64,000 bases of DNA from Sphingosinicella sp. LHD-64. Its GTDB lineage: Bacteria > Pseudomonadota > Alphaproteobacteria > Sphingomonadales > Sphingomonadaceae. Below, piece by piece: positions 10,318-57,606 of this stretch. The position numbers were made by a program, and so were the translations under genes. Location: NCBI RefSeq assembly GCF_031157375.1, contig NZ_JAVIFV010000003.1, positions 124,001-188,000 of the forward strand. The letters are read 5' to 3'. Each line of letters begins with the position of its first letter. The first letter of the stretch is position 1. Under the pieces are notes generated by a model. The model did no database searches, was not told the DNA's origin, and saw only the letters and a list, made by a program, of their open reading frames with translations.

Positions 10318-10348
10318 TTATTCCCCTCCCTGCAAGGGAGGGGAGCCA

Positions 10349-44714: not shown

Positions 44715-44743
44715 TCGTCATTCCCGCGAAAGCGGGAACCCAG
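44715..44743 (+). repeat. Left inverted repeat of the GIY-YIG cassette
   Basis: A 29-bp unit starting TCGTCATTCCCGCGAAAG and ending GGGAACCCAG. It is matched at 27 of 29 positions, in inverse orientation, by 45097-45125. Internally it is a small hairpin TTCCCGC-gaa-aGCGGGAA. It belongs to a widespread REP-like family whose relatives occur at 50360, 52519 and 57528. Confidence 0.8.
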
Positions 44744-44758
44744 ATTCGACTCCGGGCA

Positions 44759-45084
44759 TCAATCGCCGCCATTCGGCTTCAGCGGCTCGAACCCCAGGTC
44801 TTCCGCAAGGTCGCGCCAATCGGGATTGTCCGCCTCAATGAGCGCTAGCTTCCACGCCCGGTTCCATTTCTTGATCCGCTTCTCGCGCACGATCGCCGCT
44901 TCCATCGTCGGATGCGGTTCGAACCAGACAAGCAGTTTCACGTCATAATCCCGGGTGAAGCCCGGCAGAAGCCCGTTACGGTGTTTGTGGATGCGGGCCA
45001 GCGGGTCCGACGGACGCCCACGTACAAGGTCCCGTTGCGCCGCGAGGCGAGAATATAGACCGTCGGAGCGAAATCGGACCGCAT
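44759..45084 (-). pseudogene. GIY-YIG nuclease gene, single-base frameshift
   Basis: From ATG 45084 the frame reads MRSDFAPTVYILASRRNGTLYVGV, the start of a GIY-YIG nuclease (Y-I-L ... L-Y-V-G). After codon 24 the reading must shift to continue as SDPLARIHKHRNGLLPGF and on to LGFEPLKPNGGD at 44759. The data fit the loss of one base between 45012 and 45013, where GTC-aCG-TCG has become GTCCGTCG. Restored, the product would be about 108 residues, normal for these single-domain nucleases. It may be a true pseudogene or a sequencing error. It sits exactly between inverted repeats. Confidence 0.85.
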
Positions 45085-45096
45085 GCTGATTGTTAG

Positions 45097-45125
45097 CTGG
45101 GTTCCCGCCTTCGCGGGAATAACGA
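45097..45125 (-). repeat. Right inverted repeat of the GIY-YIG cassette
   Basis: The inverse complement begins TCGTTATTCCCGCGAAGG and ends GGGAACCCAG, matching the left copy at 44715-44743 at 27 of 29 positions. It lies 13 bp upstream of the nuclease ATG. Confidence 0.8.
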
Positions 45126-45159
45126 AATTGGGCGCATTCGCCTTCCCGGAACCGGCCCC

Positions 45160-46557
45160 TCAGATATGCAGTGTCCGCCCGTAAGCCGCGAGCACGCTTT
45201 CGTGCATCATCTCGCTGAGCGTCGGATGCGGGAAGGTGGCGCCCATCAGCTCGACCTCGGTCGTCTCGAGTTCGCGCGCGACCGTATAGCCCTGGATCAG
45301 CTCGGTCACTTCCGCGCCGACCATATGGGCGCCAAGCAATTCCCCGGTCGCCTCGTCGAACACGGTCTTGATGAAGCCCTCCGCCTCGCCGAGCGCGATC
45401 GCCTTGCCGTTGCCGATGAAGGGGAACTTGCCGGCCTTGACCTTGTAGCCGGCTTCCTTCGCCTTCGCCTCGGTGAGTCCGACGCTGGCGACCTGCGGGC
45501 GCGAATAGGTGCAGCCCGGGATGTTGGCGTTGGTGAAGGCGTGGACGTCCTTCACGCCGGCGAGCTTCTCGACGCAGACCACCGCCTCGTGCATCGCCTT
45601 GTGGGCGAGCCAGGGCGGGCCGGTGACGTCGCCGAACGCGAGCACGCCGTCCACATTGGTGCGCCCGTAGCCGTCGACGACAATATGGCCGCGGTCGGTT
45701 TTCACGCCGAGTGCTTCGAGGCCGATATTCTCGGTGTTGGGGACGATGCCGACGGCGACGATGACATGGCTGAACTCGCTGGTCGCGGTCTTGCCGTCCT
45801 TGCTCTTGATCGTCGCCTTGACGCCGGTCTTCGAGGCCTCCAGCTTCTCGACGCCGGCGCCGACCTCGATCTTCATCCTCTGCTTCTCGAACGCCTTGTG
45901 GACGAAGGCCGAGACCTCCTCGTCCTCGACCGGGAGGATGCGCGGCAGCATCTCGACGATGGTCACCTCGGCGCCGAGGTCGGAATAGAAGCTGGCGAAC
46001 TCGACCCCGATCGCGCCCGAGCCGACGACCAGCAGCTTGGTCGGCATCTCCTTCGGCACCAGCGCATGGCGATAGGTCCAGATCCGCTCCCCGTCCGCCT
46101 TGGCGAACGGCAGGTCGCGCGCCCGCGCGCCCGTGGCGACAATGATGTTCTTGGCGGCGAGCTCGGTTGTCTTGCCGTCCTTGGTGACGGTGAGCTTGCT
46201 TTTGCCCGCCAGCGCGCCGTCGCCCTCGTAGACAGTGATCTTGTTCTTCTTCATCAGCCCCTTGACGCCGGCATTCAATTGGTCGGCGACCTTGCGGCTG
46301 CGCTGCACCACCGCGGCGAGGTCGAAGCCCGGCTTCTCGACCGTCAGGCCATAGGCGGCGGCATGGGTCATATAGTGGTAGATTTCCGACGTGCGCAGCA
46401 ACGCCTTGGTCGGAATGCACCCCCAGTTGAGGCAGATCCCCCCAAGCCGCTCGCGCTCGACGATCGCGACCTTCAGCCCAAGCTGCGCCGCCCGGATCGC
46501 CCCGACATAGCCGCCGGGTCCGGAGCCGAGGACGATGAGATCGTAAGTGTCAGCCAT
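45160..46557 (-). CDS. lpdA: Dihydrolipoamide dehydrogenase (E3)
   Basis: A 465-residue flavoprotein that reoxidises the lipoyl groups of the pyruvate dehydrogenase complex, passing electrons to NAD+. It has the FAD motif VLGSGPGGYVGAIRAAQLG, the redox disulphide GGICLNWGCIPTKALL, the NAD-binding VVGSGAIGVEFASF and the C-terminal catalytic ATFPHPTLSE. AAAGGAGCGC precedes ATG 46557. It would normally follow pdhC directly; here a repeat-bracketed DUF559 gene lies between, and a GIY-YIG cassette lies just downstream. Confidence 0.96.
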   Translation of the reverse strand: MADTYDLIVLGSGPGGYVGAIRAAQLGLKVAIVERERLGGICLNWGCIPTKALLRTSEIYHYMTHAAAYGLTVEKPGFDLAAVVQRSRKVADQLNAGVKGLMKKNKITVYEGDGALAGKSKLTVTKDGKTTELAAKNIIVATGARARDLPFAKADGERIWTYRHALVPKEMPTKLLVVGSGAIGVEFASFYSDLGAEVTIVEMLPRILPVEDEEVSAFVHKAFEKQRMKIEVGAGVEKLEASKTGVKATIKSKDGKTATSEFSHVIVAVGIVPNTENIGLEALGVKTDRGHIVVDGYGRTNVDGVLAFGDVTGPPWLAHKAMHEAVVCVEKLAGVKDVHAFTNANIPGCTYSRPQVASVGLTEAKAKEAGYKVKAGKFPFIGNGKAIALGEAEGFIKTVFDEATGELLGAHMVGAEVTELIQGYTVARELETTEVELMGATFPHPTLSEMMHESVLAAYGRTLHI

Positions 46558-46568
46558 GGAGCGCTCCT

Positions 46569-46997
46569 TTAAGCCCCTCTCCCCTCTGCGGGAGAGGGAT
46601 TGGGGAGAGGGGATACCAGCGCCTCAAGGATTCGCTGGGTTACCCCCTCCTTGTTGGTGAGAATGTCGTTGTTCCAGAACCGGAGAATTCGAAAGCCCTG
46701 ACTGCGAAGATAGATGTCGCGGCTTGCATCGGAAGACGCATCATGTTGCCCACCATCCGCCTCGACGATCAGCCGTTGCCGGAGGCAAGCGAAGTCGACG
46801 ATGTAGTTATCGATCGGCACTTGTCGTTTGAACTTGTACTCCGACAGGCGTTTCGCCCTGAGGAGGTCCCACAGCTTCCGCTCGGCATCCGTCGGTGCGC
46901 TCCGCATCGCCTTGGCGCGCGTCCGAAGGAGCTTCGGCGTCGGATGAGAGCCCTGCCCTCTCCCCAACCCCTCTCCCGCAAGGGGAGAGGGGCTCAT
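46569..46997 (-). CDS. DUF559 endonuclease-domain protein in a repeat-bracketed cassette
   Basis: A 142-residue protein with a Vsr/PD-(D/E)XK-like DUF559 domain: AERKLWDLLRAKRLSEYKFKR, the catalytic-type VDFACLRQRLIVEADGGQHD and ILRFWNNDIL. The ATG 46997 overlaps the pdhC stop (TAATG). Its first 16 or so codons (SPSPLAGEGLGRGQG) and last ones (SPLPNPSPAEGRGA) are encoded by the two inverted repeats, so gene and repeats form one unit. It splits pdhC from lpdA. The chemistry suggests DNA cleavage; the biological role is unknown. Confidence 0.82.
   Translation of the reverse strand: MSPSPLAGEGLGRGQGSHPTPKLLRTRAKAMRSAPTDAERKLWDLLRAKRLSEYKFKRQVPIDNYIVDFACLRQRLIVEADGGQHDASSDASRDIYLRSQGFRILRFWNNDILTNKEGVTQRILEALVSPLPNPSPAEGRGA
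46572..46612 (+). repeat. Left inverted repeat of the DUF559 cassette
   Basis: A 41-bp unit beginning AGCCCCTCTCCCCTCTGC and ending TTGGGGAGAGGGG. Its inverse copy at 46955-46994 differs by one inserted base and about two substitutions. Each copy is itself a weak hairpin of CCCTCTCC against GGGAGAGG. Confidence 0.8.
46955..46994 (-). repeat. Right inverted repeat of the DUF559 cassette
   Basis: The 40-bp inverse complement begins AGCCCCTCTCCCCTTGCG and ends TTGGGGAGAGGGC, a near-identical partner of 46572-46612. It encodes the first residues of the DUF559 protein. Confidence 0.8.
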
Positions 46998-50359: not shown

Positions 50360-50442
50360 CGTCATTCCGGTGAAAGCCGGAATCTCCCTTCCTTTGAAGA
50401 ACGGGAGCAAGAAATGAGATTCCAGCTTTCGCTGGAATGACG
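50360..50442. repeat. REPIN-like paired palindrome, copy A
   Basis: Two inverse REP arms, CGTCATTCCGGTGAAAGCC and the complement-type AGCTTTCGCTGGAATGACG, are separated by about 40 bp. Each arm is a small hairpin around GAAA/TTTC. The arms resemble the terminal repeats of the GIY-YIG cassette at 44715-45125. It lies between the reductase gene and arfB. Confidence 0.8.
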
Positions 50443-52518: not shown

Positions 52519-52603
52519 CGTCATTCCAGCGAAAGCTGGAATCTCGCTGCCTTTGCAGGGGTAGTGACGAACAAATGGGATTCCAGCTTTCGCTGGAATG
52601 ACG
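52519..52603. repeat. REPIN-like paired palindrome, copy B
   Basis: Arms CGTCATTCCAGCGAAAGCTG and CAGCTTTCGCTGGAATGACG are exact inverse partners separated by about 45 bp. It follows the ctrA terminator. It belongs to the same family as the copies at 50360 and 57528. Confidence 0.82.
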
Positions 52604-57527: not shown

Positions 57528-57606
57528 CGTCATTCCGGCGAAAGCCGGAATCTCCCGTCCTTCAGGAGTGAGGAGGAAAGAGATTCCAGCTTTCGCTGGG
57601 ATGACG
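57528..57606. repeat. REPIN-like paired palindrome, copy C
   Basis: Arms CGTCATTCCGGCGAAAGCCG and AGCTTTCGCTGGGATGACG are inverse partners about 38 bp apart. It lies between convergent genes (YjbR and phytase), a frequent position for such elements. Same family as 50360 and 52519. Confidence 0.8.

Follow-up and report, generated by a model that had tools for sequence, protein, structure and literature searches.

Two nuclease genes between inverted repeats beside lpdA

The stretch analysed here (the window) comprises 64,000 nucleotides of Sphingosinicella sp. LHD-64 (contig NZ_JAVIFV010000003.1, positions 124,001 to 188,000) and carries two small nuclease genes at the pdhC-lpdA locus, each enclosed by inverted palindromic repeats. 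The first is a GIY-YIG gene (PF01541; 44759–45084, minus strand) bounded by two repetitive extragenic palindromic (REP) sequences of the CGTC type. One copy (44715–44743, plus strand) bears at one palindrome end the CGTC tag of this class (for which TGTC and CCTC also count), with the head pointing outward and the CCAG tail towards the gene; the other (45097–45125, minus strand) is inverted, and its head is altered to CGTTA. The two are complementary at 27 of 29 positions (93%). Read as a single frame, the gene contains three stops, and the profile match of its open frame is restricted to positions 21–76 of 78, so the gene is a frameshifted remnant. An earlier note on this DNA had described a GIY-YIG gene within 29-bp repeats; the repeats are real, and the gene between them is not intact.

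The second gene encodes a DUF559 protein (PF04480, PD-(D/E)XK-type; 46569–46997, minus strand). It is intact, scores 137 bits against the family profile, and its start codon overlaps the stop codon of pdhC in the sequence TAATG. The inverted repeats are 90% complementary over a core of 30 nt (46582–46611 and 46956–46985) and extend to approximately 40 nt each. The downstream arm (46572–46611) consists of a CCCCTCTCCC hairpin with an inner GGGGAGAGGG motif and encodes the last residues of the protein, SPLPNPSPAEGRGA, and the inverted upstream arm (46956–46994) encodes its first residues (14 letters, not shown). The proposal of the earlier note that these repeats code for both protein termini is thereby confirmed. 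Each flanking repeat of either gene is a hairpin on its own, in the manner of a REP palindrome, and has relatives throughout the genome. An AlphaFold model of the DUF559 protein alone had a mean predicted local distance difference test score of 54, too poor for use.

Both protein families retain their presumed active sites. Tyr3, Tyr14, Gly16, Arg24, His28 and Glu61 are invariant in 16 aligned GIY-YIG members, an alignment that leaves aside the frameshifted window copy, and we take the Tyr, Arg, His and Glu residues to be catalytic. Among 36 DUF559 members, Asp68, Glu79 and Asp81 are invariant, in a D...ExD pattern that presumably forms the active site. The sole clear relative of DUF559 with a solved structure is 3hrl, an 'endonuclease-like protein' (E 5e-28); for the GIY-YIG protein, solved structures give weak matches at best (1zg2, E 0.017).

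Recurrence of the flanked layout

Inverted repeats were detected by local alignment of 300-bp flanks, with a score of at least 14 taken as positive and displaced windows serving as background; the two loci of the window score 33.5 and 24. This genome contains six PF04480 and six PF01541 matches, and inverted-repeat flanks are present at all six of the former and at five of the latter. The sixth GIY-YIG match, in an open frame as long as 650 residues, is probably uvrC. Across 144 Alphaproteobacteria, a PF04480 match occurs in 54 genomes and a PF01541 match in 140. For each family, a class set was assembled from the six loci of this genome, 29 loci of the best-scoring other genomes and 40 chosen from the match listing; it represents strong matches and not a random draw, because the best-scoring genomes were kept and the further matches were chosen by hand. 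Flanking inverted repeats were found at 59 of the 75 DUF559 loci versus 5 of 147 displaced windows, and at 43 of 71 GIY-YIG loci versus 2 of 142, after exclusion of four truncated GIY-YIG loci (L080, L084, L088 and L091). None of 30 loci of the ParE toxin family was flanked (displaced windows, 2/60), which excludes the notion that any small mobile-type gene has such flanks.

The layout extends beyond the class. A later sample of the phylum yielded 26 new DUF559 loci, 15 of them with inverted repeats (8/14 outside the class). For GIY-YIG, the best 80 loci of more than 551 relatives were scanned in named species of many phyla, and 62 of 78 were flanked by inverted repeats versus 6 of 291 displaced windows (two loci were excluded from the repeat test for short flanks). 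The 62 include alpha-, beta-, gamma- and deltaproteobacteria, Chloroflexi, Dehalococcoidia, Elusimicrobia, Nitrospirae, Nitrospinales, Zixiibacteriota, Omnitrophota, Moraniibacteriota and a metagenome-assembled genome labelled as a Halobacteria archaeon; single labels may be wrong, since many of the records are metagenome bins. Two DUF559 loci of Azospirillum brasilense (L296 and L297), which score exactly 14, differ in their arms from the family palindrome and have a hairpin at just one of the two borders, were excluded from all counts. The check proposed in the earlier note, that matching repeats recur at the borders of such genes elsewhere, therefore gave a positive answer, and its idea of a nuclease with terminal palindromes as a recurring class is strongly supported.

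A DUF559 locus of genome G326 (L333) has an exceptionally long, near-perfect inverted repeat, with a score of 98.5, and is possibly a very recent insertion.

Each nuclease family has its own palindrome

The palindromes differ between the two families. A finder for CGTC-type REPs (GTC[AG][TC] with a stem of 8 bp or more after it) detected them on both sides of 58 of the 80 named GIY-YIG loci, on one side of 14 and at neither side of 8; the corresponding figures for the 71 class loci are 26, 9 and 36. The same finder placed REPs on both sides of no DUF559 locus (0/75, one side 5) and of a single ParE locus (1/30, one side 5). In the 80-locus set, the CGTC head points outward in 96 of the 130 nearest REPs, and a CCA tail is found in 105 of them, though it is absent from the finder criteria. 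DUF559 loci are flanked by CCCTCTCCC-type hairpins. A finder for such pyrimidine-arm hairpins located them on both sides of 48 of the 75 DUF559 loci, on one side of 23 and at neither side of 4, and never on both sides of a GIY-YIG locus (0/71 and 0/80) or a ParE locus (0/30). The pairing is exclusive: neither palindrome type stands on both sides of the other nuclease family.

The match also holds at the level of the individual gene. In genomes with several cassettes, and with arms found independently of their mutual match, the best partner of a left arm was its own right arm in 27 of 35 DUF559 cassettes (11.0 expected) and 10 of 12 GIY-YIG cassettes (5.0 expected).

Two GIY-YIG matches of Neisseria gonorrhoeae (L204 and L227) have CGTCATTCCCGC...GCGGGAAT repeats on both sides, which to us read like the dRS3 element. 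At the Bergeriella GIY-YIG locus the finder detected CGTC REPs on one side only, and the flank score is still 23. A second palindrome class, of the TTCATCCTGAG...CTCGAAGG / CTTCGACAAGCTCAGG type and mostly without a CGTC head, was seen beside some GIY-YIG genes (L065, L083, L092, L134, L140, L149, L150 and L151).

Dispersed copies and doublets without a gene

Copies of both palindromes are scattered through this genome, with 55 matches of the DUF559-type pattern CCCTCTCCCN{2,8}GGGAGAGGG and 178 matches of one CGTC-type pattern (at most two mismatches). Two or more copies of the DUF559-type hairpin are present in 26 of the 144 genomes, and their occurrence tracks the gene: a strong PF04480 match (E < 1e-20) is found in 25 of these 26 versus 13 of the 118 others (Fisher p = 2e-17), and any match, weak ones included, in 26 of 26 versus 28 of 118 (p = 6e-14). 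The 26th genome, G149, has a weak match only (E 5.9e-5), within a long open frame of 1619 residues that is perhaps not such a DUF559 gene. Each of the 90 genomes without a PF04480 match holds zero or one hairpin copy. Base composition was excluded as the source of this link, the reversed pattern occurring at most twice per genome.

For the CGTC type, where the counting pattern covers one stem type only, two or more PF01541 matches are present in 23 of the 29 genomes with at least five copies versus 50 of the 115 others (p = 7e-4); one of the PF01541 matches of each genome is usually uvrC. Y1 transposases show no link to the DUF559-type hairpins (7/26 versus 29/118, p = 0.8). This genome has no match to the Y1 transposase profile (PF01797), and the genes between its palindromes belong to PF01541 and PF04480. 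REP-associated tyrosine transposases (RAYTs) of the same genome are accordingly excluded as the source of the repeats.

Some of the dispersed copies are doublets without a gene, of which 20 regions from seven genomes were retrieved. Doublets of genome G037 (for example L309) agree in their ends with L040, a cassette that does bear the gene, including the inner GGGTGAGGG / CCCTCACCC motif, and a short spacer where the cassette has its gene. The window itself contains three gene-less CGTC-type doublets of approximately 80 bp with heads outward, near 50.4, 52.5 and 57.5 kb (50360–50442, 52519–52603 and 57528–57606). Many copies, mostly in head-to-head dimers, characterise the CGTC REP class, and many copies and dimers are both found here; the term 'heads outward' is ours and does not presume the HH naming of PMC3733652.

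Two DUF559-type doublets in genome G000 (contig C1, at about 455.4 and 513.4 kb) are near-identical and stand in opposite orientation. They also have sequence in common beyond the palindromes (GACATTC...GAATGTC), a hint that a doublet can be part of some larger unit.

Sites with and without a cassette

The pdhC-lpdA locus was compared in 26 genomes, three of which lack an lpdA match at the cut-off. The DUF559 gene is present in this genome and in 9 of the 22 relatives read (10/23 loci), and the GIY-YIG gene, decayed as it is, in this genome only (1/23). These counts exclude one unit of both genes around lpdA: the two cassettes behave as separate insertions, and the special meaning that the earlier note gave to their position side by side is not borne out. 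Nor are both genes fixed in all relatives, a state that the same note, for repeats unrelated to the gene borders, had named as grounds for abandoning the idea of a mobile unit. In a tree of 81 DUF559 proteins, which rests on few columns, 70 of the 71 proteins from other sites form one clade (97/99) that excludes all ten pdhC-lpdA members; the remaining outside protein sits on a very long branch at the midpoint root. Because the tree separates these ten members from the others, the insertion looks old in the genus. The gaps of these relatives have diverged too far for exact junctions to be read.

GIY-YIG cassettes present in some related strains and missing from the corresponding site in others, sought as a further check, were found in Azospirillum, Sphingobium and Shinella. 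A. brasilense ATCC 49958 (L292) carries a cassette in the gap between sufB and sufC. Seven records (A. brasilense, A. argentinense and strain TSH58; 96–97% identity) match the region in two pieces, with a span shorter by 555 to 576 bp, and in the five of them that were aligned the gap measures 32 bp and contains no gene and no REP. In Shinella, strains WSC3-e and HZN7 have a cassette; the same gap in S. sumterensis 1760953 has neither the gene nor a CGTC REP, and that of strain PSBB067 measures 35 bp and contains a CGTC-headed palindrome of different sequence. In Sphingobium, the fnrL-response-regulator region with the cassette, on the 'Tom' plasmids, is matched over 99–100% of its length by seven records, three of which were aligned, and over 89–94% by four. 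None of these last four has the gene at the cassette place. In TomTYG64 a single solo CGTC REP stands there, which corresponds to both cassette ends in their outer halves; TomTYG74 has the same REP in decayed form. The place is taken by a DUF559-type hairpin in TomTYG72 and by a short palindrome without a head in TomTYG65.

The solo REPs bear on an alternative in which the cassettes move by homing: the nuclease would cut an existing REP at a cassette-less site, recombination would copy the cassette in, and the REP families would spread by other means. GIY-YIG is a known homing-endonuclease fold, and the occupants of the cassette place in TomTYG64 and TomTYG74 fit the target that homing would use, as is the palindrome of Shinella PSBB067, though of another sequence. 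However, the solo REPs are equally explicable as remnants after loss of a cassette, the gaps of the five aligned Azospirillum records and of S. sumterensis contain no CGTC-type REP, and homing leaves unexplained why the hairpin copy number follows the DUF559 gene. Homing is thus an unlikely account of the whole, and we give it more weight than the other rivals.

The same sites yielded some further observations. A. lipoferum 4B (L211) has a GIY-YIG gene in the same sufB-sufC gap, and a plasmid of Sphingomonas parapaucimobilis (NZ_CP155753.1) has a DUF559 gene inside a sufB-sufC match; this gap is perhaps a favoured target. The intergenic gap of the Sphingobium plasmids (L304 of TomTYG72 compared with L206, L302 and L303) differs between strains in its occupant, which is a GIY-YIG cassette in some and a solo REP of the CGTC type or a hairpin of the DUF559 type in others. 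Four Pseudomonas loci (L223, L231, L250 and L252) have a common GIY-YIG cassette site with flanks 84–94% identical, and a cassette of this kind can therefore be inherited over a long time.

Relation to known repeat systems

Among the closest known systems is that of REPs and their RAYTs (TnpA_REP), with REPtrons, REP doublets forming hairpins (REPINs) and bacterial interspersed mosaic elements (BIMEs). There too, inverted palindromes enclose a small DNA-processing gene, doublets without a gene are scattered about, and the repeats are specific to their partner. The enzyme and the tag differ: RAYTs are Y1 (HUH) transposases with GTAG-tagged REPs, whereas here GIY-YIG or PD-(D/E)XK-type nucleases accompany CGTC-tagged or CCCTC-type palindromes. 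A Y1 gene between GTAG-tagged REPs, the defining arrangement of a RAYT or REPtron, was not found in this genome.

CGTC REPs were defined by Di Nocera et al. in 2013, who included Neisseria dRS3 as a CGTC-1 REP (PMC3733652). The palindromes at GIY-YIG genes fit that definition, as given in the available part of the paper, in the CGTC head, the AT-starting stem, the CCA tail and the dimers. According to the same text, these REPs apparently lack a dedicated transposase, for which element extinction or borrowed transposases were suggested, and of the two tagged classes surveyed only GTAG had a known partner enzyme (PMC3733652). It reports few, fortuitous associations with transposases, in contrast to the GIY-YIG gene found here between the repeats, and the terms 'GIY' and 'DUF559' are absent from its main text. 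The accessible text of a 2025 REP survey (PMC12306157) contains no word starting with nuclease, RAYT or transposase, and that of a 2018 study of HUH enzymes (PMC6006769) mentions neither GIY nor DUF559. We recognised no published link of GIY-YIG or DUF559 to REP-type palindromes among the papers listed from the open literature, bioRxiv and most subscription journals being outside the scope of the search. Two listed papers that mention both DUF559 and palindromic sequences look unrelated, as far as their listing shows.

Two further systems share parts of this anatomy. Free-standing GIY-YIG homing endonucleases are likewise lone genes with variable presence between related strains; the genes described here differ in having their own dispersed palindromes as flanks, and no fixed homing site was found. 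The Vsr-like PD-(D/E)XK endonucleases (DUF559, including Caulobacter VsrA and the solved relative 3hrl) have the same domain and the conserved D...ExD residues. VsrA, by contrast, was proposed to act in mismatch repair, and the available text on it (PMC12907096) does not contain 'inverted repeat', 'palindrom-' or 'repetitive'.

Nuclease cassettes as probable REP-type mobile elements

The anatomy of a REP transposon, namely an enzyme gene, its own palindrome at both ends and shorter copies elsewhere, recurs in both families, and we consider that these are probably REP-type mobile cassettes built on nucleases in place of the RAYT transposase. Such a cassette would consist of one small nuclease gene between two inverted palindromes that are specific to the nuclease family and largely to the gene. 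On the simplest reading, the nuclease would most likely recognise and cut its own palindrome once this has folded into a hairpin or cruciform, as might happen where replication exposes single-stranded DNA, and host repair would then copy or join the cut ends elsewhere. Gene-bearing cassettes would spread rarely by this route, and gene-less doublets more often. The association of nuclease and palindrome is near certain; the mechanism is no more than likely. We infer that it is the nuclease, and no other enzyme, that spreads the units.

Several observations weigh against this interpretation. Cleavage and transposition are inferred, and neither was observed. Flanks below the threshold are found at 16 of 75 DUF559 and 28 of 71 GIY-YIG class loci, and at 11 of the 26 DUF559 loci of the later phylum sample, where the background is higher (8/104 displaced windows). 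No flanking palindromes were seen at DUF559 loci in Escherichia coli and Deinococcus, or at GIY-YIG loci in Rhizobium tumorigenes and Photobacterium. The association of CGTC copies with GIY-YIG genes is modest, 6 of the 29 genomes with at least five copies having a single GIY-YIG match, and Y1 transposases are mildly enriched in the CGTC-rich genomes (12/29 versus 24/115, p = 0.03). The DUF559 cassette at pdhC-lpdA has long been stationary. Target-site duplication, which the earlier note had advised looking for, was not seen at the readable junction, that of Azospirillum, where approximately 22 bp of the old gap are replaced; the other comparisons are too diverged. Finally, the available text of PMC12907096 proposes that the DUF559 protein of Caulobacter acts in repair as a Vsr-like enzyme.

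Some of these points would suit a second alternative, in which the palindromes owe their spread to another enzyme or to replication slippage, and the nuclease was trapped between a pair of them or is retained for cutting or policing the hairpins. The CGTC-rich genomes with a single GIY-YIG match and the repair role that the authors of the Caulobacter study assign to their protein (PMC12907096, text available in part) are in line with it. The palindrome pairing is exclusive to each nuclease family, however, ParE genes are not flanked, and Y1 transposases are unlinked to the DUF559-type hairpins, so that we judge it improbable. A third view, in which the palindromes around a small gene act as ordinary terminators or as hairpins for mRNA stability and belong to no mobile unit, is hardly credible. 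They are strong hairpins at gene ends, often right after the stop codon, but they are symmetrical on both sides, gene-specific, dispersed as gene-less doublets, mostly missing along with the gene at cassette-less sites and absent from ParE genes.

The reading of REP-type cassettes built on nucleases suggests that the two families are the long-missing partners of palindromic repeats that litter genomes. We lean, a little less firmly, towards a wider view in which the GIY-YIG and DUF559 folds each mobilise a huge palindrome family, the RAYT system would be one of at least three that spread REPs, and CGTC REPs, Neisseria dRS3 included, would be the footprints of GIY-YIG elements in many phyla. 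Few repeats of bacterial genomes are as common as interspersed palindromes. If GIY-YIG is the partner of the CGTC REPs and DUF559 that of the CCCTC-type hairpins, two small proteins would suffice for a direct test of where these repeats come from; if the reading is true, DUF559, a large family of unknown function, would gain a role, and a mechanism with such nucleases acting on hairpins would join those known for mobile elements.

Minor features

A solo pyrimidine-arm hairpin (CCCCTCCCTGCAAGGGAGGGG) is located at 10321–10345 of the window. Several of the records filed as plasmids, among them NZ_CP119142.1, NZ_CP119140.1, NZ_OL790696.1 and CP090106.1, measure 2.2 to 4.8 Mb and resemble chromosomes.

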